Below, piece by piece: positions 1,341 to 64,000 of a stretch of 64,000 bases of DNA. The DNA comes from Melieria omissa (taxonomy: Eukaryota; Arthropoda; Insecta; Diptera; Ulidiidae). How positions within the stretch are numbered: position 1 is the stretch's first letter; every line of letters starts with the position of its first letter. The stretch spans positions 43,979,264 to 44,043,263 of the forward strand of contig OZ020269.1 in assembly GCA_963971225.1 (NCBI GenBank). Direction: 5' to 3'. The position numbers were made by a program, and so were the translations under genes. The notes under the pieces were generated by a model. The model made no database searches. It was not told the DNA's origin and worked only from the letters and a program-made list of their open reading frames with translations.

Positions 1341-3135
1341 ATTCTAAGTCCAACCACAACGCCATTAGCAGCAGCAATATCTGGTCTGCTGTTGACTTTG
1401 AAGCTGCAAAAATACTCTAGCTTCCGTAGGAAGGTACCTCATACTCGCGGAAGTTTTGCTATTATGTTCCTATTTTTACATGTTCCTATTTTTTCATGTT
1501 CCGATTTTTCGGCTACCGTTTTTTCGTGGCTTCCTTCTCGGTGTTATCCGAAATTATGTGCTTCTCTTCTCAACGCGTGAGTGAGAGAGCGAGTAAGAGG
1601 AGTATACCTACTCGTTAGCGATCGAGTAAGTGAAGTATACATATCCGACACCAAACTTCTCATGTGCAGTAAAAAGTTATCCGATGCAGATCTCTATTAG
1701 AAATCTCCGAACAAAATTGAACCACCTAACAAATTTCCAAAGCGATGTTTTTGATTGACGAAGCTATAGAGATTTTTTTAAAAAACGATCCTGACAGCGG
1801 AAGGAGTTTTAAAGTGTCCCAGGCGGTAGCCACGAATATCAATTGCTACAAGGAAATTTATTTTACGTTGAAAAAAAAGCTGTTCAGCAAACATTGGACC
1901 ATTTTTTTGTGAAAGAAAGCTGACTTACAACAACAGCCACTATGGACCCATCAGACAGTGATTAATTTTTATTTTGTTTTTATAAATTAATTGAATATCT
2001 TATTTTGTTTTAATTGGTTTTTTTTTTGTTTTTTGTATGTATGTATGTAAAAAAATTTTATATTATTTTTGTGTTTTAAATGTTCACTTTGTTCAATTTT
2101 TAAAAGGTTTTTTTTCCTAACCCTGGAACCTATCTTCGATGTTTACATGGTTTGCGATAGAAAATCATAATTCACCTTGCGTCGTTTCAGTTTGTGTCGT
2201 GTTTTTTTGGAACGTAATCACGACGCAAAGTGAGGTATGGGTGTATTTGAAGAAGTGTTGCGACTTAAGTGTCACTTATCGGCTAGCAATATAAATTCAG
2301 AAGAAATTTTTCTGTGATCTGGACTAAATTTATTAGAAAAAATTGTAAAATGGGACTTCAGTGAAACACTTTCAAATTTTAGTTTAATCGTGCTATATAT
2401 TGTAATATTTCTTAATACTTTGTGTATCGGTGTCAAGTTGCGAAAGAAGTTTTTCAAAACTGAAACTTGCAAAAAACTATTTGTGCTCCACCTTGTTTGG
2501 AAAGACTTAGTTGTTTGTCATTTTTATCAATTGAAAGAGACACATCATCGACAATTGACTTTAAAAATGCAATAGACGAATTCAGTTCAATAAAAGCAGG
2601 AAAACATCTTTTCTAAATAACACTTGTTTACAAATTTTCGAAAAGTTTTCCCTCGAAGATTGCAATATTTAATTTTTAACTTAAAATTTTCTGCAAAATA
2701 TGCAAATACAAAATTCGAAGTCAGAAATTAAATTTCGTAATCTCCGAGATTTTGCTATTTAACTTTAACCAGTAAAAATGTAGAATTTTGAAGGACACAT
2801 TAACAAAAAGGAATCATCTGATTTTACTTAAATAAACTGCGGTTTATTATCCAATTCTTATACTGTATTTCCACTGAGCGCTTAAATGCATTTAAGGGCT
2901 CTGTTAAATTTGACAACTGTCAAGAGTTTCCACCAAAACTGAGTTTACTCCAACAGCTGGGTTTTGTTTACATTTTCATTTGGATAAATCAAATTCTGCA
3001 TTTGTTTCTGGGCAGCCACAGCTATACCCATCGCCGCCACCTCCTTGTATACGTATGAGTGGTTTCTTGTAGCCTCCCTAGTACTAAAAACCACTCCGCT
3101 TTCCTTCTAAACAGTCTAGGAATGTCTACGTTTTT
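1341..3135. other. Unassigned AT-rich DNA
   Basis: I recognise no gene here. A 55-codon open frame at 1745-1912 has no recognisable motif. A short (TGTA)n tract lies near 2035-2050. Inverted copies of TTGCGTCG and CGACGCAA at about 2178-2185 and 2221-2228 could form a hairpin. The rest looks like decayed repeat DNA. Confidence 0.5.
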
Positions 3136-11446: not shown

Positions 11447-12070
11447 TTAAAGCACTGTAACTTGTAAACTAATGGTCGGATTGACATATAATTTTGACAG
11501 TAAGCCTAAAAAGGTTCACAATTTCGAAAAAAATATTGATTTAGTATTAGTGCCGCCATCTATGTGTCAGTCACACACATTATTGAACGAAGTGTTACAT
11601 ATCCTACACCCATATTAGCTTAAGGGGGAAAGCCACTGTGACTGTTTTTTTTTGTTTTAAATCAAAGCTTGTATATTCACAATTATGTGTACAAAATTTC
11701 AAGTCATAATTTCAAAAATTGACTAAGTTACAACTATTTTAAAATTTTAAAAGATACATGATTTCATTACGAGAGAAATGGACTCAAAACTTTAAACGCG
11801 TTTTTCTCGAAACGACTTTTTTTGAACTGGCGGCATCAATAACTCGAACAATTATGAACCGATTTCTAATTTTTTTTTTGTTTTGTTCGTCTTAGTAGTG
11901 GTTAAGGTTAAGCGTAGCCGATTTGGAAAATTTTGTTTTTTACTATTTTTTAAACTGTCTTAAAACCAAAAAAACAAGGTCGAAAACATGGAAATATTTT
12001 CAATCGGTCGCCATTTTGTGAAAAATCAAAATAAAAAAAAACGGCTACGTACAAAGATAGCTACATTCAT

Positions 12071-28758: not shown

Positions 28759-30944
28759 CACAGTGGCTGATTCTGCTGACGTAGGTTGCAAAAGTCGATT
28801 TTGTCATGTTCGATTTGGGGGAAACTCTTATACTTGCCCGATAGATAAATGATTGGACCTAAGAAATCCGAAAACCTTAACTATATTGGACAAATAGTTT
28901 TACTTGTAGAGCCCGTCAAAGTTGAGCAATTTGTAGAGTGTGAAATAATATCAGCAATTTGCACTTTTTCGGCAAAGCTGAAGTTTTAAAATACGGAAAG
29001 GAGCAAATTAGTTGAAACTTTTTGCACTAGCATCGTAAAAGAAGGCATTTGTAGTAAATAATTAAATATAGAAAAAAAAGTTGGTTGTTGTTGTTGTCTT
29101 TTCATAGGCACTCACTTGAAGCATTGTTTTTATCACTCTTTTTGAACTTTCGATAGACTTTCAAAAAAAAGGCCATACTTGCCACGGTTCCGTCTTTGGG
29201 AAAATTGTTCACTAGTCTTCTGTGATTTCTGCCATGAAGAGATCGGGTGCCCGATTTTGCCCGACTGGATTTTACAGCGATATTTCTGTGGCCACCTCGC
29301 GCAATTTTGTGCTTTCGGGTGCGTACGTTCAAAGAAGTTCGTCAAGGTTTTGAAAGTGAATCAAATACACGCGATTATACTTGTTGCCAGGGCATGCAAA
29401 TTTAGATTTTGGCTTCATTTAAGATGTGATACAAGCTTGCAATTCAATATTAAGTAGACTTTTTTTTGGCGTATATTGCTGTAAGCTCGAAGTAAAGAAT
29501 ACTTTTACTGGATGCGCAGTTCGCACATACGAAAAACAAGTTGGCTTTCATTTCCGGCAACCAGTCAATCATCAATGTATCCTTTGATTTTGTTTTTAAC
29601 AAAATACTAACACTGTGTCTGTCATACAATTTTTTTTTTTAATTTGAGCAAAACTCAGCCAGTCGCCATTAGTCTTTGAGTTGAACCGCGCCAATGAAAC
29701 AATTAGTTATTGAAAAACAAAAAGCAGACTTATATCTATGTGTACTGTCTAAAACCCACTTATGTGTCTGGGCTGTTCAAAAATCCCACAACGGGTAAAA
29801 ACCTAAGAACTGCCGGTACCTGCTAGTACTAGAAGCTTAGTTCCTGCTATTTGAATGCATATGCAAATCCTACTTATAAATAGAAGAGTTTAGAGTAATT
29901 AAAGTTAGTTTCGATTTTAATTTGAACTAAACATCACTTTAATTCCGCCACTGCAACTAAACCGAAGAAGAAGCACAAAAATGTTTCTGAAAAATTCGAA
30001 GCCGTTTGAAATATTTACTATTTCGAGGACAAAGAAGTTCGTTCTGGCTGTCGCTAAAGAAATTGGTTACGTCGAAAAAAGTTTACCTGCATCCAACGTA
30101 TCTACGACTAAAGAAAAGATATCCAGGACTTATCGTACTATAAAGTGGAAATGGATTGCGGCAAACCGTACCCAATTCAATTTTGTCCAGAATAATGAGG
30201 AGTGGTTGGAAAAAACAACTTACTTCGATGCAGGAGATGCATGTAGCATAAGCGATGACCAACCATCGACATCAACGGCGGCAATAGGAAGGCCGAAAAA
30301 GTCAACGGAGGTCGGTGCGTCATTCACTAAAACAAGGAAGCTTATGGAGGCAACAGGAAAAATAACTACCATCCACTTTTCAGAAGCTTTGACCATAAAA
30401 TAAAATAAGGATCAGGAGAAAATTAAAGGCATTATAGTGAAAACTGTTTTACCAGCAAACTCGGATCCTGTTAAAAGAATTAAAAACAGTATTCCCACCC
30501 CACGCAATGTGCTCCCGATCAAATATAGTCCTAATGAAGCTTTAGCAGTGTTTTTGAACTTAGGATTGTCTAAAAAAATTGACTTCTTACGTAAATTTTT
30601 CGAATTCTGGTTCTAATTTTGAAAGCGAAATTTATTAATTTGTATCTTTAAATTTGACTCTTTCAGCTTATTTCTTCAATTTCTTATTACTTTTCATCTT
30701 TTTTAATGAATTTTCATTAATTTTGCAACTAAAAGTTAACATTGTTGCTCGCATTATTCTTATTTACAGCAACCCGAACTTTGACAAACTATTACGTAGC
30801 AACCTGTACATTGATTGAGTTTATTTTTTAGAATACAATAGCCTGATGAATTTCTAATCAACAGCAAAAAAAAATTTCCAATTATCTCTATTCGTTCAGG
30901 AGTTATTAATTTTGCAACCTGAAATGACAAATTGAGCCACTGTG
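28759..30944 (+). mobile_element. Transib transposon, symmetric ends (22-bp spacing)
   Basis: Both ends begin CACAGTG between CGTCG at 28754-28758 and 30945-30949, the 5-bp CGNCG target of Transib. After the heptamer each end has 22 bp and then GCAAAA (GCAAAAGTC left, GCAAAATTA right). Only an N-terminal transposase remnant is visible; the catalytic core is deleted. About 28790-29980 and 30410-30940 contain no other gene I can support. Confidence 0.92.
29981..30403 (+). pseudogene. Transib transposase N-terminal fragment
   Basis: 140 codons. KFVLAVAKEIGYVEKSLP, YRTIKWKWIAANRTQFNF and AIGRPKKSTEVGASFTKTRK follow the same order as the first exons of the intact Transib at 49658-50500 (WVACHRIKATFEKK; RGRPPVDYDESCDKTKRRK). 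The G-R-P/K-K linker precedes the catalytic core in Transib proteins. Nothing of the DDE core follows. Confidence 0.72.
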
Positions 30945-42207: not shown

Positions 42208-45200
42208 AGATAGTGCAACTCAACTTAAACCACTGCGCTGCAGCACAAGACCTGCTGAAGCAAACTGCGGTCGAGCAGAACTTCGATCTGGCTCTGCTCA
42301 GCGAACAATATAAAAACATTGATGGCCACGAATGGACAGCAGATGCGGACAATAAGGCCGCAATATGGGCGCCAAACAACAAAAACAACGGCTTCCAGTG
42401 CAAAATGCTGACGCCGGAACGCGGTTTCACATGGGTTAAGTTCAGCGGCGTTTATTTCTTCGCCTGTTACGCACCACCCAGCTGGAACAACACTGAATTC
42501 GAACGCATGCTAACGGCGCTGGTAATGGAAGCGCAGGGCAAGACGCCCTTGGTGGTTGCAGGCGATTTTAACGCTTGGTCGACGACGCACAGTGTCGCGA
42601 GTGTGGCCAAAAATACAAAAAGTCGATGTTGCAAACATGATATTTTTTTTACATACATGGTGAGATAATACTCCCAATAAGACAAATCCAAAATATTTCT
42701 TTAAACAAATAATAAATGTAAGCAGGAGCCATCCACAAAGTTGAGCCTTTTCTTGGAACACATTTTTGCCAGAGCAACTCACTATTTTTATGCTAAATGT
42801 AAGTAGCATTTTTAGCTTACAGGTACTATGTATGGATACAAATTACATACGTAAGAAAAATATAGAGTTTGGGCAAGTAGGTGCTACTTTTTTGTTTTCT
42901 TTTGATCAGCATATGCGAAGTTACGTTGCTCTAAAAAAACCCGGCCTGGCTCACGAAATGTGAGAAAAATTGCTAACTTTGGGAGACGATAAAAAGAAAA
43001 CGTCTCAATGCATCTCTGCAATGATTAGTGCAAAACAAAGCCACAAGTACCACCTTTCAAATAAAAAAAAAATTAGCTGCGTCGACCTGCGTCCCCACCT
43101 AAAATTATACTTCTTGTAGTGGCACCTACAGTCAAAAATTGTGATTTTTTCGAAGTATGGCTTGGGACGCATAATGAAAACTGCGGCAAAACAGCTGTTA
43201 CAATGGTGACCTATATAAAAGATAAGGTGGGAACTTTGTTCGTATCTTCAAAAGTAGGCAGAATGTCACGCCCACTTTAAAAATTTAAATATTCATACCA
43301 AAATATGGTATCACAAGCTGAAAAAATTAATACACGAATTCATGAAGGAAAACTTTTGGCCACTTAATAAATATTCTCCAGCTGCCACGCCCACTTTTAA
43401 GGTTTAAGGAAGCTTAAAAATTAAAATCACATCGTAGAACGGTATTGTAAACAGCATTTTAAAAATACAGTTGTAGTTGTAGTAAAATTCGAATATTTTT
43501 GAAAGTGGGCGTGGCAGACCGCCCATTTTTCGTGTGAGCTTTTTTGTCATTATTTTAAGCACAAATACAAAATTTCATAATTCTATCACTAATATTAAGC
43601 AAGTTATTTCAAAATTTCAGTTCCTTTCGTAAGGGGGGTGGGCGTGGCAGTGGTCCAATTTAAATGATTTTTTGCAAATTTCTTAATTTTGACCCCGAAA
43701 ACGATCTCACCAAGTTTCATCGAGATAGGACAACGCTAAGTATTTTTGGCCACAGCTTATATGGGATCGCGACACTGTGCGACGTGGGGCAGCACTCGCA
43801 CTAACCAGCGCGGCAAAACGCTGCTGGAATGCCTGGCGCCGCTAGAGCTTGAGCTCCTCAACCACGGCGGGCAGCACACATTCGACTCCGGCAGAGGTAG
43901 GTCAGTGATCGACCTAACGTTTGCGAACTCCTCACTGGCACGAAACGCAAAGTGGGCGGTCAGCAGTATTTACACGCACAGCGACCACTTTGCGATCGTG
44001 GTAGAGCTTGATTTGCGCATGCGAACGCCGCACCAGGTAGGCAAGGCGCAGACCAAAGGATGGAGAAGGCAAGCTTTTGACGCGGAGATGTTCGACTTGG
44101 TGTGGAACGAGGGGCAGGTCCAGTTAGACACCGCAACCAAACTGGCAACGAGCATCACAGACAAGCAAAAGCGTGCGATGCGGCAATGCCCAGGCGGGGA
44201 AGCAAACCAATTAGAAAGCCCGTGTACTGGTGGAATGACGAAATCGCTTGCCCCAGGAAAAAATGCCACCAGGCGCGCAGAAGGTTGCAGAGGGGTAGAA
44301 ACCTGCCAACACGAGAAGCGCTGCAAGGTGCGTACAGGGCGTGCAAAAAGGCATTAAAAGGAGCGATTAGCCGCAGCAAGCAGGCATGCTTCAAGGCGCT
44401 ATGCGACGACGCGGACCTGGACCCATGGGGCAAAGCCTACAAGGTGGTAATGAGCCGCATCAAAGGCCCAAGATCGCCACAGCCGAGCGACCCAACATTG
44501 TTAAAAGAGGTGGTCGTCACACTTTTCCCACCCCAACACGACAGTATAGAAAACTGTGGTCCAGGTCTGGATATCGGCGACGTCCCGGAGGAGACAACCA
44601 GTGAAGTGCTGCAGACACTGGGGAAAATCGCGGACAACAAATCCCCGGGGCTGGATGGCATCCCGAATGTGGCGCTTAAAGCCGCAATGCGAGCCAGGCC
44701 GGATGTATTTGCCAACCTGTATGGCACCTGCTTGAAAGAGGGTGTCTTTCCAGACAAATGGAAACAACAAAGACTGGTGCTACTACTCAAGCCTGGCAAA
44801 CAGCCAGATCAACCCTCGTCGTACCGGCCGCTCTGTATGCTTGATACAATAGGCAAGGTGTTAGAGCGGATAATATGCGACAGATTGCAAAGCATATTGG
44901 AGCAACCAGGCGGTCTATCGACGCAGCAATACGGTTTTCGCAAAATGCGCTCCACGGTCGACGCTATCCAGGAAGTAATGGGCATAGCTCGCGAGGCCAC
45001 GCGCGGAAAAAGGTGGCGGGGGGGAACCAAAAAGTACTGCGCCGTCATTACTCTGGACATAAAGAACGCCTTCAACTCGGCAAACTGGGGTCGCATCATG
45101 GAAGCGCTGCGAACTTTCAAGGTTCCGGCGTACCTCCAGCGAATCATCGCCAGCTATTTTCACAACAGACTGCTACTGTACGACACGGACGCGGGTGTGC

Positions 45201-47060: not shown

Positions 47061-49528
47061 ATGAAAATGCCTGTTGAGCGATCCCCCAAACGCCAACTTG
47101 TCACAATGGAGACTCCTTCCTCCAGATACGCAAAGTCATCTAAATCACATTTGACAGTTCCTGTCACTCGGGAGCCACCAAACACTCGCTCCAAACTCTC
47201 TAGTCCGAAAGCAACCGATCCCAGTGTTGCCAAATTTACTTTCGAGTACGATAGACTCGTGCTATTATGCACACAATTTTCATCGGCTCCCATTGACGAA
47301 TTGACCAAATCCCTGGTCCAAATTAAGCAAAAAAATTTGCAAGCCCAATGGGAGAGGCTTATGTGCGCACATGAGGCAGTCTTCATTGCTGAAGACAACA
47401 GCCAGCCTGACGGTTTCAAAGAGTCGGCTAGGCAAAAAATCGACGCCTGCACAGACCAGTACGAGTTGTGCATGGCTCAGATGTTGGACATCATTGAGAT
47501 GCTCCAAACTCAGTCCCCCCAGCCCGCTGCGCATATGGAACCGGTTCGACCCCTAGAACCAGCAAATACCCCTTACATTTGCCTACAAGTTCCACCTTGT
47601 GATACCGAAACCTTTTTCGGGGGCTATGAGCAATGGCCGTCCTTTCGGGACATGTTTACCGCGGTTTACATCAACCACCCCCAGCTCACTCCAGCCCAAA
47701 AATTGTATCACCTCCGTTACAAGACGCAAGGTAAAGCCGGTGCTATTGTTAAGCAATATGCATTAACCGATGAGAATTTCGGACTCGCGTGGGAAGCCCT
47801 AAGATCCCGCTTTGAAAATAAACGCATACTCATTGATTCACAAATTAGATCCCTCCTAAATATCGCTCCTGCCCACACTGAAGATAGTGAGGCACTTCAG
47901 CGGATCCAAAACACAATAAACAATTGTCTGTCTGTTCTCAATACTCAGGCCGTAGACACTGACAATTGGGATCCGCTATTGGTTTACATATGTTGTACCA
48001 AATTGCCCCAAGAGACACTCGCTCTATGGGAGCAATCACTGACATCCCGGAAGGATCTGCCACCCTGGTCGCAAATGGATGAGTTCCTGACCGGCAGATA
48101 TGAGGTACTTGAACGGCTTCAAAGTATTCGCCCTTCTAAGCCGAAACCGTCTCAACCTTCGACTTCCAATGTCCTCCCAAATCGGCCACACAAATCCCTT
48201 AACTAAAAAAGGGACTTCGCGTGCAAACTCTGCAACGCAAATCATCCCATACGGACTTGCCAGAACTTCAAAGGACTCACCCCCCAGAGTCGATTAAAAT
48301 ACGTTCAGAAGCACAATCTCTGCGTAAAATGTCTTGCTACCTCGCATCTCACTAAAGATTGTACAAGCAATTTTACGTGCGTATATTGCCAAAAGAAGCA
48401 CCATTCTATGCTTCATTTCCCTAAAGGCAATGCGCAACCCTCTCATACTCCTAACTGGTCACATTCGACCACTCCACAGGTCGCAACAGCTCCAAAACGA
48501 TCGCATAACAACTCCGTTACTCATTCCCCCCTTTCGGATGCGCAACCCCGCACATCTTCCAGGCAAAGTACGCCCAAAGTACAAGCCCTCCACTCTAATA
48601 ATGGCACCCAATCTCTTCTGCCTACGGCACTGGTGTCCATTGAACACTCAGGAAAGTTGTTTAAGGTTTGAGCGTTGATCGACCAAGCCTCTCAGCGTAC
48701 CTTCATCTCCGCGAAGGTCCAGAAACGCCTCAAATTGCCGATCGAGAAATCCCCCTTCCAAATCCCGGGCATGGGCGGTCAGATTGTGCAAAATGCCAAT
48801 CATACATGCTTCTTGACCTCGGCAGTCCCCCAATCGAGCACGAGGCTCCCCGTGCAAGCAATCGTGCTCCAAGAGCTTACGAATTCGCTCCCATCTTCCC
48901 ACATAAACGCTCCCAATATGAAACATTTCGCCATGCTAGAACTCGCTGATCCAAATCCTTTCGAGACAGCGCAGATTGATATAGTGATTGGCAGTGATCT
49001 CATCCCGCAGATCATGCTCGAAGGTATCCACCGGAATGTATGTGGCAGCTTACTTGCTCAGCATACAGTATTCGGTTGGGTATTAAGCGGTCCAGTACCC
49101 CGTTCTTCGCATTTGACATGTGCCACAGAGGTACCAGGTCGCCATATGCATACTGGACACGCCCTTCGAAATAATCTTCCCGCCCTAAAGGAAGCTCTTT
49201 CGCAAGTGATTGCCGCCCTCAATCCCGCAGGGTTTCCACCCCAGGAATTAATGGAAAATCGCTTTGAACCCACCACACCTGCAAACCCATTCTCAAACCG
49301 GCAAATTCCCCCCTTCGTTGCCAACCGTTTTGATCCCGCAGGATGGCTTTCGCCTCTAATGAAACAGAGAAAAAGGTTTCGACAAGAGCGTTGGCTTAAC
49401 GCCACTCGATCCACATCCACAGCAACTGACGGAAATTGCATTTCCCCGCAGTTACGCATTGCACCACCGCCATCCCGGGTCCGAAAAGAGGACAGTTGCC
49501 ACTCCAGTGCGACTCGCTCCAAGCGCTG
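47061..49528 (+). pseudogene. BEL/Pao gag-protease polyprotein with two in-frame stops
   Basis: One frame runs from MKMPVERSPKRQLVTMETP to the Transib insertion. Gag shows FFGGYEQWPSFRDMFTAVY (typical Pao capsid region, about residue 190) and LTDENFGLAWEALRSRFEN. TAA at 48204-48206 interrupts before two zinc knuckles (CKLCNANHPIRTC; CVKCLATSHLTKDC). TGA at 48669-48671 precedes the protease, where ALIDQASQRTFIS replaces the usual D-S-G with D-Q-A. GSDLIPQIML and FGWVLSGPVP follow. After about 49200 a jump to RFDPAGWLSPLMKQRKRF shows RT is largely deleted. Confidence 0.85.
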
Positions 49529-49556
49529 CACAGTGTCGCGAGTAGGGACAAAAATC
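49529..49556 (+). promoter_or_regulatory. Left Transib terminus, 12-RSS-like
   Basis: Heptamer CACAGTG (49529-49535), spacer TCGCGAGTAGGG (exactly 12 bp), nonamer ACAAAAATC (49548-49556). The vertebrate RSS consensus is CACAGTG-12/23-ACAAAAACC; the nonamer differs at one position. Role as transposase-binding site is inferred from family knowledge. Confidence 0.85.
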
Positions 49557-49657
49557 AAAAAAATGAATTTCGTAAATGTAGAAAAATAAGTTTGCAGTAC
49601 TGGAGTAAATACCTCAAATCACTAAAATGTGAAAACGGATTTTAAAAATATCAATTT

Positions 49658-52109
49658 ATGTACCGATGGCAGGCCACCAAACTTGCACTTTGTGAAGGTA
49701 TGTGACTTGGGTAGAAATTATTGCAATTTGTTGAATGTAAGTTCGAGGACTCTTATTGAAAAATTTCCCATGGAACCTTATGTTAACTAAATATATTCTA
49801 TAAATATACTATTTTTGCAACTCTGTGGAAGCTTTCCCACTTTTGTTTTGCTTTCTATATTCCTTGTACCGTTACTTGGAGAAATGTCAATTCGTAGGAA
49901 TTAAAGTGCAGTGTCATCAAACTTTAGCTAAACTTTAAAAAAAAACTACTTCTTACTACTTCGAGATTTTACACTGTGATATAACTGAAAGTATGTATTA
50001 ATAGAAACCATGGACTTTAGCTGCACAAACTTGCACGTTTTTAAGAAATTCAACATTTTCAGTGGCGTATGCAGTCAAAAATAGGGACCTTTTTGCAGCA
50101 TGGTTGGCAGCAAAACATTTCGACCGCTGCGGCGCTTTGCTTGAGCTACAAATTTTTGTATCAAATAATATGCCAACTCCACTTAATTCAGAAAAATTAC
50201 AAAATAAAATAGGTAAAATTGAGGGAAGGCTTCGGCAATACTGGGTGGCTTGCCATCGAATCAAGGCAACGTTCGAAAAGAAGCACTTTCAATGGCTTAC
50301 GTCGTCCACTGATTTTGAAGATTGCGCTAATGAACACTACGATAACAGAGATTTGCCACTTGATGAGGTATGTTATTTTAAAAACAGTTAACAGATATTT
50401 GCTGATTAAACATATATCTTTTTTAGAAGCCAAGTACTAGTAGAGGCAGACCTCCGGTGGATTATGATGAATCATGTGACAAAACTAAGCGTCGAAAAGT
50501 CATGCAGCTTGTGGATAGCACTCCATCAGACCAAATCGTACGAGCAGCGGATCTAATAAACAAGGAAAATATTGATGCTGAAGATCAATGCCTGTCAGTT
50601 TATCAGGCACTTGGTCTTTATTATGATTTGGATTTGTCTGTGCGGAAATATACTGTTTTGCAAACGGTTGTCAATGCAATTCGTAGTAAGTGCTTTCCAA
50701 GTTATTACGCCCTAAAAAAGGCTGCAGACGCTTTAATGCCACGCCCAATTATTGTGTCGGAAGTATCAGCTGAAGTTCCGTTGCAAAGTTTACTTGACAA
50801 AACGGCCGAAAGTTTGCTAAAAATATGTGGTACAGAAAAAAATTCGTGTTATGTCCTCGAATGCAAATGGGGCTTCGACGGCAGTTCAGGACATAGCATA
50901 TATAAACAAAAATTCTCAGATGTTAGCTTTACGGACGAATTCATGTTCATAGCAGCATTAGTACCTCTACGAATTTTGAAGACTGATAATAATGAAGTTA
51001 TTTGGGTTAATAGAAAGCCTTCATCTACACTTTTCTGCAGGCCCATAAAATTTGTTTTCATTAAAGAAAATCCAAAAGTGATTAATGAAATTGAAAAACA
51101 CATTGCAAGTCAAATTGAAAGGCTTTGTGCATATCGCGACAATGAAAATAATTGTGAAGTTACTTTTAGAATGTACCTTACTATGATCGACGGTGCAGTT
51201 GCTAATGTGCTGTCTGACAATAAATCTGCAATGAAGTGTTATTTATGCGGATCACTCCCAAAAGAAATGAACTCATTTCATGCCATTGCAAGACCATTTA
51301 ACGAAGAGTTTTCTAAATACGGACTATCGACATTGCATGCCTGGATAAAATTTTTTGAATGTTGTTTGCACATTGCTTACAGATTGCCCTTGAAAACATG
51401 GCGAGTTTATGGTGAAGAAAATAAAGTAATTTTAAATGAAACTAAGGAACGAATTCAACGTGAATTCAAAGAAGAGATAGGCTTAATTGTAGACAAAGTA
51501 AAAACAGGTTATGGAACATCTAATGATGGAAATTCTGCTAGGAGATTTTTCCAGAACCTTGATATATCAAGTAAAATTACTCAGATAGACTTTAATTTGC
51601 TTCAAAATTTTTCTATTATATTAAGAACGTTGTCTTCCGGCAAAAATATAAACATTACCAACTTTGAAGTCCTACTTAAAGAAACATATGAAATATACAT
51701 GCGGCATTATCATTGGTTCTGTATGCCGGTTACAGTGCATAAAATATTAGTTCATGGAAAGGATATAGTAAGTCACTTTAATATTCCTATTGGTATGCTT
51801 TCGGAAGAAGCATTAGAGGCAAGACATAAGGATTTTCGCAAAAGTCGGTTAAGTCATGCACGAAAGTCCTCACGCGAATCGGCGAATAGCGATATATTAA
51901 GGAACTTGTTAATGTCTTCAGAACCAATAATATCAGTTAATAGGAAAATAAAACATAAACATGAAAACCGAAACTCTGATATAATGCAATACATAATATC
52001 TGAGGAAGTTGAAGGACCGAGTTGTGAAATTTTGTCAAAGATAGATGTAGAGGGTTTAATTTGCAATAATTCATCATCGGAAAGCGAGTGTCCTAGCGGT
52101 ACAGAATAA
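49658..52109 (+). CDS. Transib transposase (RAG1-like DDE recombinase)
   Basis: Predicted exons 49658-49697, 50063-50367 and 50427-52109 (introns 365 and 59 bp, GT..AG) give 675 codons without a stop. It starts MYRWQATKLALCE; exon 2 continues in phase as AYAVKNRDLFAAWLAAKHF; exon 3 begins KPSTSRGRPPVDYDESCDK. Candidate catalytic residues are Asp in KWGFDGSSGHS and in LTMIDGAVANVL and Glu in GMLSEEALEARHKDFRKSR. CYLCG and HAWIKFFECCLHIAYRL may bind zinc, and YGTSNDGNSARRFF with MPVTVHKILVHG are shared by other Transib copies in the window. It should nick and hairpin DNA at CACAGTG ends in the nucleus. First exon is the least certain part. Confidence 0.87.
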
Positions 52110-52492
52110 CAAATTGTAATTTTTAATGAAAATATATGCTATACTGAATTAAATAAGAGATGTTTTTATTTTCTATTTTGGTTTGAAATTACTTAGGTGC
52201 GCGTAAGTATGAACAGATATTTGTAGATTTTTCAAAATTTCATTTTTTTATAACAAGCGTATTTGTAAGGTGATCGATTTTTGGCATATGTCTTTATATT
52301 CATGATGTGAGTTGCTGTACTAAATTTTATCAATATATCTTTTATAGTTTCCGAGATACTGTCAACTTAGTATTTGGTTTGTATGGGAGGTGGGCGTGTC
52401 CGTGGGGCGATTGAAGTAATTTTTGGCCTATTACCTTCTCTTTATAACAAAATCATATGTACAAAATTTTATTGTCGTACGACTATTCCTTC

Positions 52493-52531
52493 TATTTTTG
52501 TCCCTCGCTACTATGGACTCGCGACACTGTG
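52493..52531 (-). promoter_or_regulatory. Right Transib terminus, 23-RSS-like
   Basis: Read inward on minus: heptamer CACAGTG (52531-52525), spacer of exactly 23 bp (52524-52502), nonamer ACAAAAATA (52501-52493). The spacer is the left spacer with an 11-bp insert CCATAGTAGCG between TCGCGAGT and AGGG, about one helical turn. Confidence 0.85.
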
Positions 52532-52536
52532 CGCTG

Positions 52537-58922: not shown

Positions 58923-59608
58923 CACAGTGTTTCGCCTAGAACAAGCTAGCTGGACAAAAACGACATTTTTATTTCCTGATTTTTCCATTAGATAATGAAT
59001 GTCAATATTCATACATTAGGATTTGTGTGAAAATAACACACCGGCACTTTCAATATAGTGAGCTATATAGATAAATATATCAGATTATCGTAAATTTTAA
59101 TAATTTCTTCACATAGTTGGCCTGCAGTGATTTATTAAAATAAGTTCGTGTTAAAAGTCGGTTACAACTTTTTTTTTTAATGGAGTCTGTGCTTAAGAGT
59201 GAGTAGTATTTTTACAATGTCTTGTATTAGCAATTAAGCTATATTTAATAGTTGTAACGTGCCATGATTAAGAAGGAAAGCGATTTTTTCCACAAATTTT
59301 CAACTTTAAAGGTGAAAAGTTGAGATGTCTCCTCATGTCACCTCTCCAATTTTTATATATATTCTGCTCATAAGTACGGACTAGTAGATGGAACAAAAAA
59401 CCATTGCGAATTTTTTGCACATCTATTTTATTTTATTTTTTCAGATTTGACTATAAGCATAACAAAATTTAAATTTTTCGGAAATTTGGTTGGAATATTC
59501 TAATGAAACAAAAAATAAAGAGATAATGAGGCACATGTTACCAAATTTAACGATTATGAAGTGACAGACAATTCCTTAAAAGTCAAACTTTCCCAAATAC
59601 CATAAAAG

Positions 59609-60357
59609 TTGTCCATGAAGTGGAACAGCCTAGGAAGAAACCGTGAACGATTTCTAAATAAGACCCCTGACTGGCTATCTGGTTCAGAGATAATTTTCAA
59701 CATTACTGTACGTTCAAGCTTGCCATCGACATCTTCAGACAGCCATCCAGTTTCTGGCAGACCAAAGAAGGTATTTGATAACTCCAGTCTGAGGACCAAA
59801 CGAATAGATGACTCAATACAATCCAGAAGTGCTGATGAGCTGATTTATGCTGCAGAGGTATCTGCACGACTGTCCGGCAGTAGAAATGTAGCAAGTGTTA
59901 TCAAAACTGCGAAAAGGGAGACTCAAGAATCTCTGAACGAAAAAAAAAGTGAAAAAATTCTAGATGTTTGAGCAGTGAAGAAGCTTTAGCATACTATGTA
60001 GATAGCAAATCAACTAGTCAATTCAAAAATGTGCTTGGACTGATTGTAGATAAACCAAAGCCTGGATTCGGTAACACAAACGACGGCAATACTGCACGTA
60101 GGTTCTTTGAAAATTCAGAGAAAAGTGTAAAAATTACTGGCTTGGATGTCACTTTCATGAAAAAATTCGACACACTCCTACGCGCTTTATCTTCGTGGTA
60201 TAACATGCCTGTTACGGTTCACAAAACTTTGGTGCACAGCACTGACGTTATAAAATCGGCAATTCTGCCAATTGGTCAGTTTTCTGAGGAAGCTCGTTAT
60301 AAAGTATGTAGGCGATTTAGAGCAAACAATACGCAAAAGCAGTCCCGTGAACTGTAA
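59609..60357 (+). pseudogene. Transib transposase with catalytic core deleted
   Basis: N-terminal part: MKWNSLGRNRERFLNKTPDW, VSGRPKKVFDNSSLRTKRID and ADELIYAAEVSARLSGSRN, up to a stop near 59971. Then a C-terminal part: LGLIVDKPKPGFGNTNDGNT, ARRFFENSEKSVKI, YNMPVTVHKTLVHSTDV and LPIGQFSEEARYKVCRRFR with the Glu motif. The two Asp motifs are missing, so the protein is dead. Confidence 0.85.
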
Positions 60358-60639
60358 GTAGGTAATAAATTGACAAGAATTTCCTGCTGTGCTAAGAATA
60401 AACGCTCAACAGTCGTATCTTAAACTGCTTGAAGTTTCATTTTAGCACGCGTTTCATTCACATCAATTTGGATGTGGATATAAGCAGCTTTTGCCGTTCT
60501 AACACTATAAAATGACGGAAATACCTTATGACAAGCTTAGATACTCCATTTCCGAGGCCTTTTGTGTGCATGACTAGTCGATTGGCTATCTATATAGTAC
60601 AATAAAGCTGTAATATCTCAAACTTAAACGTCTATCATT

Positions 60640-60812
60640 TTTTTCGTTCAGATAATCTTGAGTCTCATTTTTCGCAATTTTGATAACACTTGCTACATTT
60701 CGCCAGTGGACAATCGTGCAGATATCTCCGCAGCATAAATCAACTTATCAGTATATCTGGTATGTTTTAGGTCATCTATTTTTCTCCCTTTGGTCCTAAG
60801 ACTGGAACTATT
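60640..60812 (-). repeat. Inverted duplicate of part of the Transib gene
   Basis: Its reverse complement matches 59774-59945 (for example TTCCAGTCTTAGGACCAAA against CTCCAGTCTGAGGACCAAA, and GTAGCAAGTGTTATCAAAA in both) with roughly 10-15 percent difference. Confidence 0.85.
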
Positions 60813-60995
60813 AAGCTCCTTAATGTACATATGTATATATAGGTATTTGTATATTTATATGTATATATACATATAAAAAGACATAAAAAACTAAAAAAGT
60901 ATATGTATCTGAAATAAAAAGCCGCATATTAAACGAAAAATCCTGAAAAATATGTTTGTCCAGCTAGCTTGTTCTACACGAAACAATGTGCGTCG

Positions 60996-62900: not shown

Positions 62901-63127
62901 AGTCGGCGCGCACAGCGCCACCTACTTGCGACGCACAGTGGGGTATTGAGCATTGAAAACGGCGATTAATTCTCCTGAGCTATTAAAATGAATGTAAAGT
63001 ATTTTTTTACATAGATGAAGCATATATAAGACAAATTGAAAAAAAATATTGTAGTTGTTGTTGTTTTTTTATTAAATTTATTCAATTTAAGTAAATATTT
63101 CAAGTTTTGGGCTTCTCACACTAGAAT

Positions 63128-63201: not shown

Positions 63202-63853
63202 CGCAATATCATTACCAGACTGGAAATTTGTATTATCTGTTGAAGTTTTTACAGATGGTGATTTTAAAAGTTCAATAGCTGAAAGTGGTAGGTGTTGGAT
63301 CTTTTTTTTAGGAAGTTTCCTTAAACTTGATAGAATTGGATCGGAAGCAACAAGAACTCGATGCAAAATATCATGATTTGTTTTTTTCTCTGCTAGTCTT
63401 GCGTGTAAAATGTTCTCCGTATTTTTTAAATTCTTTATTCAGTGCTTCTTGAGCTTCCTCAGTTAATTGGCCAATTGGTAACAGAGCGTGGTGTATTATT
63501 TCTGGCCCATGAATTAGAAATTTGTGCACCGTAGGTGGCATGGTTGGTTGGTTAAGTGGCTGCCTCTGTATGAGACACACTTAGGCCTATGGGCCCGTTG
63601 TGATACCATGCATATTGCACCATGGATACTTTGATACAAAATATCTCGCAGTATCATGTGCGAAATTTCGAAACTTTGCAATATCTACCTCATGGCCACA
63701 AGAAGCCACTATCAGTATAACGTGCAACCTTTTTATCAAGTTCAAGTCAACATTCGTGATTTCAGACGATAGCTCTGCGTTTCGAAAGAACCTTCTTGCC
63801 GTATTTCCATCATTTGAGTTGCAGAATCCGGGTTTCGGTTGATCAACAATCAA
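63128..63853 (-). pseudogene. Transib transposase C-terminal half with an Asp-rich tail
   Basis: Minus frames give VDQPKPGFCNSNDGNTARRF, a helical segment, PTVHKFLIHGPEIIHHALLP and IGQLTEEAQEALNKEFKKYG (Glu motif), then LHRVLVASDPILSSLRKLPK. A stop and at least one frame change interrupt near 63380 and 63580. The C-terminus is a run of Asp encoded by an ATC/ATT microsatellite, ending at 63130. The catalytic Asp region would lie beyond 64000. Confidence 0.82.
63134..63200. repeat. ATC/ATT trinucleotide microsatellite
   Basis: About 22 ATC or ATT units, in frame with the Transib C-terminus on minus, where they encode Asp and Asn. Confidence 0.9.
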
Positions 63854-64000
63854 ACCTGCTTTCTCTCTGAATCCCTTTTGAATATTTTTTTTTGTTTCGT
63901 TTTCTGACCTTACTTACCATTTTTTTATTAGTAATTTGTACGATAAATGAAGAAGGCATTTAAAAAAATTGTATCGAACCATGCAGTACTGACAGTCCAA

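Follow-up and report, generated by a model that had tools for sequence, protein, structure and literature searches.

The window analysed here, a stretch of 64,000 nucleotides from Melieria omissa, contains an element of 3003 bp (E1, 49529-52531) flanked by a perfect 5-bp duplication, CGCTG, whose left copy, read from the letters, occupies 49524-49528 and whose right copy occupies 52532-52536 (both on the plus strand). Its terminal inverted repeat starts with CAC in an RSS-like heptamer, and the first 15 bp, CACAGTGTCGCGAGT, are the same at both ends. On the plus strand, the left end is composed of the heptamer CACAGTG (49529-49535), a spacer of exactly 12 bp, TCGCGAGTAGGG (49536-49547), and the nonamer ACAAAAATC (49548-49556), which agrees with ACAAAAACC at 8 of 9 positions. 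The right end, read inward on the minus strand from 52531 to 52493, is composed of the heptamer CACAGTG (52525-52531), a spacer of exactly 23 bp, TCGCGAGTCCATAGTAGCGAGGG (52502-52524), and the nonamer ACAAAAATA (52493-52501), with 7 of 9 agreements. The right spacer can be written as TCGCGAGT-CCATAGTAGCG-AGGG, which is the left spacer with 11 bp (CCATAGTAGCG) inserted after its eighth base. The initial annotation had described the two ends and the 11 extra bases in the same terms, and was correct on each point; it made no mention of the target duplication, of the second 12/23 element or of the two symmetric Transibs described below.

Scored over the 16 bases of the RSS consensus CACAGTG / ACAAAAACC, as quoted in PMC8289069, E1 has 15 matches at its 12 end and 14 at its 23 end. 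The nonamers found at spacings 12 (8/9) and 23 (7/9) are the best of 44 offsets at their respective ends, and a nonamer match of at least 7/9 occurs at 0.34% of the window positions. A resemblance to RSSs arising by chance in A-rich transposon ends has some footing in the left ends, where the A-runs by the heptamers give matches elsewhere as well, of 6/9 in E1 and, at offset 20, of 7/9 in the second element, E2. However, a nonamer of at least 7/9 at spacing 12 or 23 is absent from all 123 of the window's other CACNNTG sites.

The transposase gene of E1 lies on the plus strand, and a three-exon model yields a protein of 675 aa. The putative exon 1 (49658-49697) was modelled from GT-AG splicing and an open frame, the spliced frame being open in all seven full-length copies, E1 included. 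Exon 2 (50063-50367) was modelled from the spliced frame, with weak tblastn support from P0013, P0019 and P0024, whereas exon 3 (50427-52109) is identified by homology, catalytic residues and predicted structure. The catalytic residues are D266, D370 and E579; among 48 aligned sequences, both D residues are invariant and the E is nearly so. A GRP motif (GRPP) is located at protein position 122, and PMC9435367 lists GRP among the conserved positions of the nonamer-binding domain; the same paper describes Transib Subgroup II as having a type II C-terminal tail and having lost the α11-α12 region. The 550-aa reading frame of E1 has HzTransib as its best match in the PDB (E=1.9e-107), with much weaker matches to RAG1-like proteins. 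The predicted structure of exon 3 (mean pLDDT 88.6) also retrieved HzTransib as the top match, at 38% identity in the Foldseek alignment and a target-length TM of 0.91, followed by RAG1 and BbRAGL, which bears out the original identification of the element as a Transib.

A protein collection contains 604 relatives of the E1 transposase, the top three being 53-57% identical. Among the 120 relatives listed, those with names are from insects and some carry PF26100; a Pfam search of the E1 protein from the window returned no match. No relative was confirmed in the viral contigs and genome contigs collections. The 14-bp end CACAGTGTCGCGAG does occur in 48 stretches of viral contigs, which we read as chance: none has a nonamer at 12 or 23, CAAAAA lies within 50 bases in 6 of the 48, and one stretch is truncated after 16 bases. 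Within E1, no second gene or RAG2-like partner was found among unspliced ORFs of at least 60 aa, a search that a many-exon gene would escape, and outside the transposase exons the ORFs contained within the element reach at most 88 aa. After removal in silico of E1 together with one duplication, two frames ran open over the junction, for 110 and 128 aa.

The window's own genome (490 Mb) was searched for the E1 family, which gave 74 matches, with 40 of 435 candidates scored. Besides E1, six full-length copies were recovered, with 0-13 mismatches over 3001-3003 aligned bases plus short indels; in all six, the 675-aa transposase frame is open and the target duplications match. Given these few differences, the open frames and the matching duplications, E1 looks recently active. 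One full-length copy (L054) carries CGCCGTG in place of the right CACAGTG, and its target duplication still matches. When ends were recounted in the fetched loci with E1's own ends as the query, which favours similar ends, and with offset ties resolved to 12 or 23, all 32 distinct left-type ends had a spacing of 12 and all 25 right-type ends had a spacing of 23. The initial annotation had raised the question of whether 12 and 23 are fixed at the 5' and 3' ends across the copies of the family; they are in 22 of the 22 sampled copies with both ends, E1 included, and 17 of these have identical target duplications.

A rather unlikely explanation of this constancy is a frozen accident, in which the ancestral element had unequal ends, the enzyme is indifferent to their pairing, and the copying of whole elements preserves the asymmetry. 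Such indifference would agree with a report, in section 6 of PMC8355894, that RAG1 alone does not prefer 12/23 over 12/12. Against it, the E1 copies that keep 12 and 23 include internally deleted, non-autonomous ones, and decayed copies likewise retain both spacings.

The second element, E2 (42588-43779, plus strand), is a non-autonomous 12/23 Transib of 1192 bp with the target duplication CGACG, within which no transposase was found. Its ends are CACAGTG-12-CCAAAAATA and CACAGTG-23-CCAAAAATA; the spacing was counted to CCAAAAATA, common to the two ends, and not to the vertebrate consensus, which the nonamers match at 6/9 at 12 and 23, the best left offset being 20 (7/9). A genome search for the E2 family scored 40 of 402 candidates, and 20 well-aligned copies were sampled from at least 40. 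The left spacing is 12 in all 20 and the right spacing is 23 in 19 and 22 in one, the single exception to 12/23 among the two-ended copies, and the target duplications match in all 20. Spacer sequence diverges between families while spacer length stays constant except for that one 22, which also speaks against the frozen accident. E2 is inserted in a LINE, in a putative endonuclease region labelled from a motif rather than a family match. The named matches to the LINE are in Bactrocera, Trichogramma and Neodiprion (47-53% identity), and when E2 and one duplication were removed in silico, one frame stayed open over the whole 271 aa inspected around the junction. The target duplication has the form CGNCG at 24 of 28 sites, comprising the seven full-length E1 copies (the shorter ones being left out), E2 and the 20 E2 copies.

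A window scan for CAC ends that lie 300-6000 bp from each other, have similar termini and are flanked by the same 5 bp, run with no shuffled control, retrieved exactly E1, E2 and two decayed symmetric Transibs, both with the target duplication CGTCG: E3 (58923-60990, plus strand), with 24/24 spacing, and E4 (28759-30944, plus strand), with 22/22 spacing as counted by eye. Both contain transposase remnants, that of E4 being weak (29981-30592). Since symmetric and 12/23 Transibs share one genome, 12/23 is a property of some lineages, and the symmetric elements in the same window indicate that Transibs as a whole can transpose without it. A minus-strand fragment of another Transib transposase (63304-64000) runs off the window, and CGACG-CACAGTG at 62934, with no clear nonamer, may be the end of that element. 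Elsewhere in the window, two CACAGTGGCTTTCCCCCTTAAG sequences, at 11640 (minus strand) and 13727 (plus strand), stand in divergent orientation.

Genome-wide, the pattern CACAGTG-N(5 to 35)-ACAAAAAT gave 1797 matches, as compared to 126 for a control pattern read backwards. By spacing, 634 of the matches fall at 12, 494 at 23 and 182 at 24, as compared to one control match at each. The first 100 matches listed show the same peaks, with 39 at 12, 29 at 23 and 6 at 24, whereas no other spacing has more than 5. Nearly all of the spacing-24 matches listed (about 100 of 182) have the end type of E3. The excess at exactly 12 and 23 over a single control match each argues strongly against chance resemblance in A-rich ends, which we regard as extremely improbable.

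The pairing of the ends was counted over the first 85.8 Mb of contig C1, from the 100 listed of the 634 12-ends and from 78 23-ends; of the 494 23-ends in total 100 were listed, and the other 22 of these lie beyond 85.78 Mb. In this region, 12- or 23-type ends face each other at a distance of up to 5 kb in 38 pairs, every one of them 12/23 and none 12/12 or 23/23; two pairs are on the same strand, and divergent pairs do not occur. Since 12/12 or 23/23 pairs could result if copies exchanged ends, their absence from the 38 is a further point against the frozen accident. In 20000 trials of label shuffling, at most 31 of the 38 came out as 12/23, with the limit that family copies are not independent. 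Both ends come from one family in 34 of the 38 pairs. As for the remaining four, the pair at 16094634 is a tie, and those at 45085645, 47356064 and 34670004 probably combine ends of separate elements or do not represent an element at all: the first two join two families, 47356064 also shares its 12-end with another pair, and 34670004 spans just 128 bp. Among 10 fetched pairs, 6 have identical target duplications. The ends fall into about five related types, TCGCGAGTAGGG, TCGCGAGTGTGG, TTGCGAGTAGTG, T/CTCCGAAGTGGG and CTTCGAGAGTGG, for all of which there is a 23-bp partner. For the F5 end type, the partner end was found in 3 of 4 loci tried, with identical duplications in all three, the partner having been sought by its duplication. 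Because family copies inherit their ends, the pair counts are not independent events, and the independent evidence amounts to about five related end types.

The four spacer bases proximal to the nonamer are equal at both ends in 28 of the 34 same-family pairs and unequal in 6, and they vary between families (AGGG, AGTG and TGGG, with GTGG in E2). Such equality is as would be expected if one protein domain reads both ends. In addition, of the 56 distinct 23 spacers taken from the 100 listed of the 494 matches, 37 carry CATA at positions 10-13, and at any other offset it occurs at most once. In two loci (L160 and L162), the 23-end spacer CTTCGACTCCATACAAAATTGCG has a nonamer-like ACAAAAT at spacing 12, 11 bp before the real nonamer. 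The agreement of the proximal bases and the CATA could in part be explained by shared ancestry; the likeness of the 12/23 end types in their proximal bases, together with the CATA in most 23 spacers, probably does reflect shared ancestry, and to that extent is compatible with the frozen accident.

The same features might instead point to separate roles of the two ends, the left one leaving room for a promoter and the CATA of the 23 end binding a bending protein, in which case the asymmetry would fix orientation and not coupling. The position of the CATA would fit such roles, as would the location of the 12 end upstream of the transposase in 7 of 7 full-length E1-type copies. However, the nonamer and its flank are common to both ends, the extra block of about one helical turn fits phase-preserving recognition by one protein, and the CATA is explicable by shared ancestry alone. 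We consider separate end roles to be distinctly improbable.

The 12/23 arrangement of E1 is not new: 12/23 Transib ends were already published in 2005. In PMC8355894, which refers to Kapitonov and Jurka 2005, D. melanogaster Transib5 and A. gambiae Transib2, N1, N2 and N3 are given as 12/23 asymmetric, whereas most Transib families are symmetric according to PMC8289069. Like that group, E1 belongs to the Transib superfamily and has asymmetric RSS-like ends, with spacers of 12 (±1) and 23 (±1) at opposite ends as in the Transib5_DM type, a likeness drawn from the published description and not from sequence alignment. E1 differs in having seven near-identical full-length copies, itself included, with open transposase frames.

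E1 combines a RAG1-core DDE transposase, a 5-bp GC-rich duplication, CAC inverted repeats and a single gene, as Transibs do. It shares the transposase fold of HzTransib from Helicoverpa zea (PDB 6pqn and 6pqx), whose ends are symmetric with little or no nonamer according to PMC8289069, whereas those of E1 are 12/23 with a clear nonamer. As compared to vertebrate RSSs, the heptamer is identical, the nonamers agree at 8/9 and 7/9 and the spacers are alike at 12 and 23; a resemblance between the 23 spacers of Transibs and vertebrates was set aside as post hoc. With vertebrate RAG1/RAG2, E1 has a RAG1-like fold in common (13-15% identity to RAG1 in structural alignments), but it is mobile and has a single recognised gene, and no RAG2 was seen in it. 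ProtoRAG and RAG-like transposons resemble E1 in their 5-bp duplications, CAC ends and asymmetric end pair. In contrast, these carry RAG1L and RAG2L, with 27/31 spacing in amphioxus, and no RAG1L-RAG2L pair was seen among the unspliced ORFs of E1, where a many-exon gene would escape.

Taken together, E1 is likely to be a complete, recently active autonomous Transib whose RAG1-like transposase synapses one 12 end with one 23 end. The RAG1-like DDE transposase would bind a bipartite signal at each end, consisting of the heptamer as the cut site and a nonamer extended to about 12-13 bp (AGGGACAAAAAT), the latter probably being read by the N-terminal domain with the GRP motif. One 12 end and one 23 end, which differ by one helical turn, would then be synapsed and the flanking DNA would be nicked and hairpinned at the heptamers; once excised, the element would join a CGNCG-like target with a 5-bp stagger. 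The chemistry, the nonamer-reading domain and active discrimination against 12/12 or 23/23 pairs are proposed by analogy with HzTransib and RAG. The spacing pattern records the natural pairing of ends and is not in itself evidence that the enzyme would refuse 12/12 or 23/23. As for how the two ends arose, the 23 spacer of one family type holds, directly ahead of the real nonamer, a nonamer-like ACAAAATTGGG whose spacing is 12. This hints that tandem duplication of the nonamer module, in a step of 11 bp, could turn a 12 end into a 23 end.

The origin of the 12/23 rule is an open question, on which a 12/23 Transib with near-consensus nonamers bears. In the literature consulted, structures have been solved for HzTransib, a Transib enzyme whose ends are symmetric, and 12/23 Transibs appear as sequence cases; among the papers listed for Transib ends and related subjects, none was recognised as a test of 12/23 coupling in a Transib. 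Only tentatively can it be proposed that a RAG1-type transposase enforces 12/23 without RAG2, and that the rule predates V(D)J recombination, having been inherited from an end-pairing check of Transib. E1 offers a test system in which a RAG1-type enzyme acts without RAG2 on near-consensus RSS ends, with E3 and E4, the symmetric Transibs of the same window, as natural controls. With its near-identical copies and open frames, it makes the question of whether a RAG1-type enzyme alone counts 12 and 23 directly testable.
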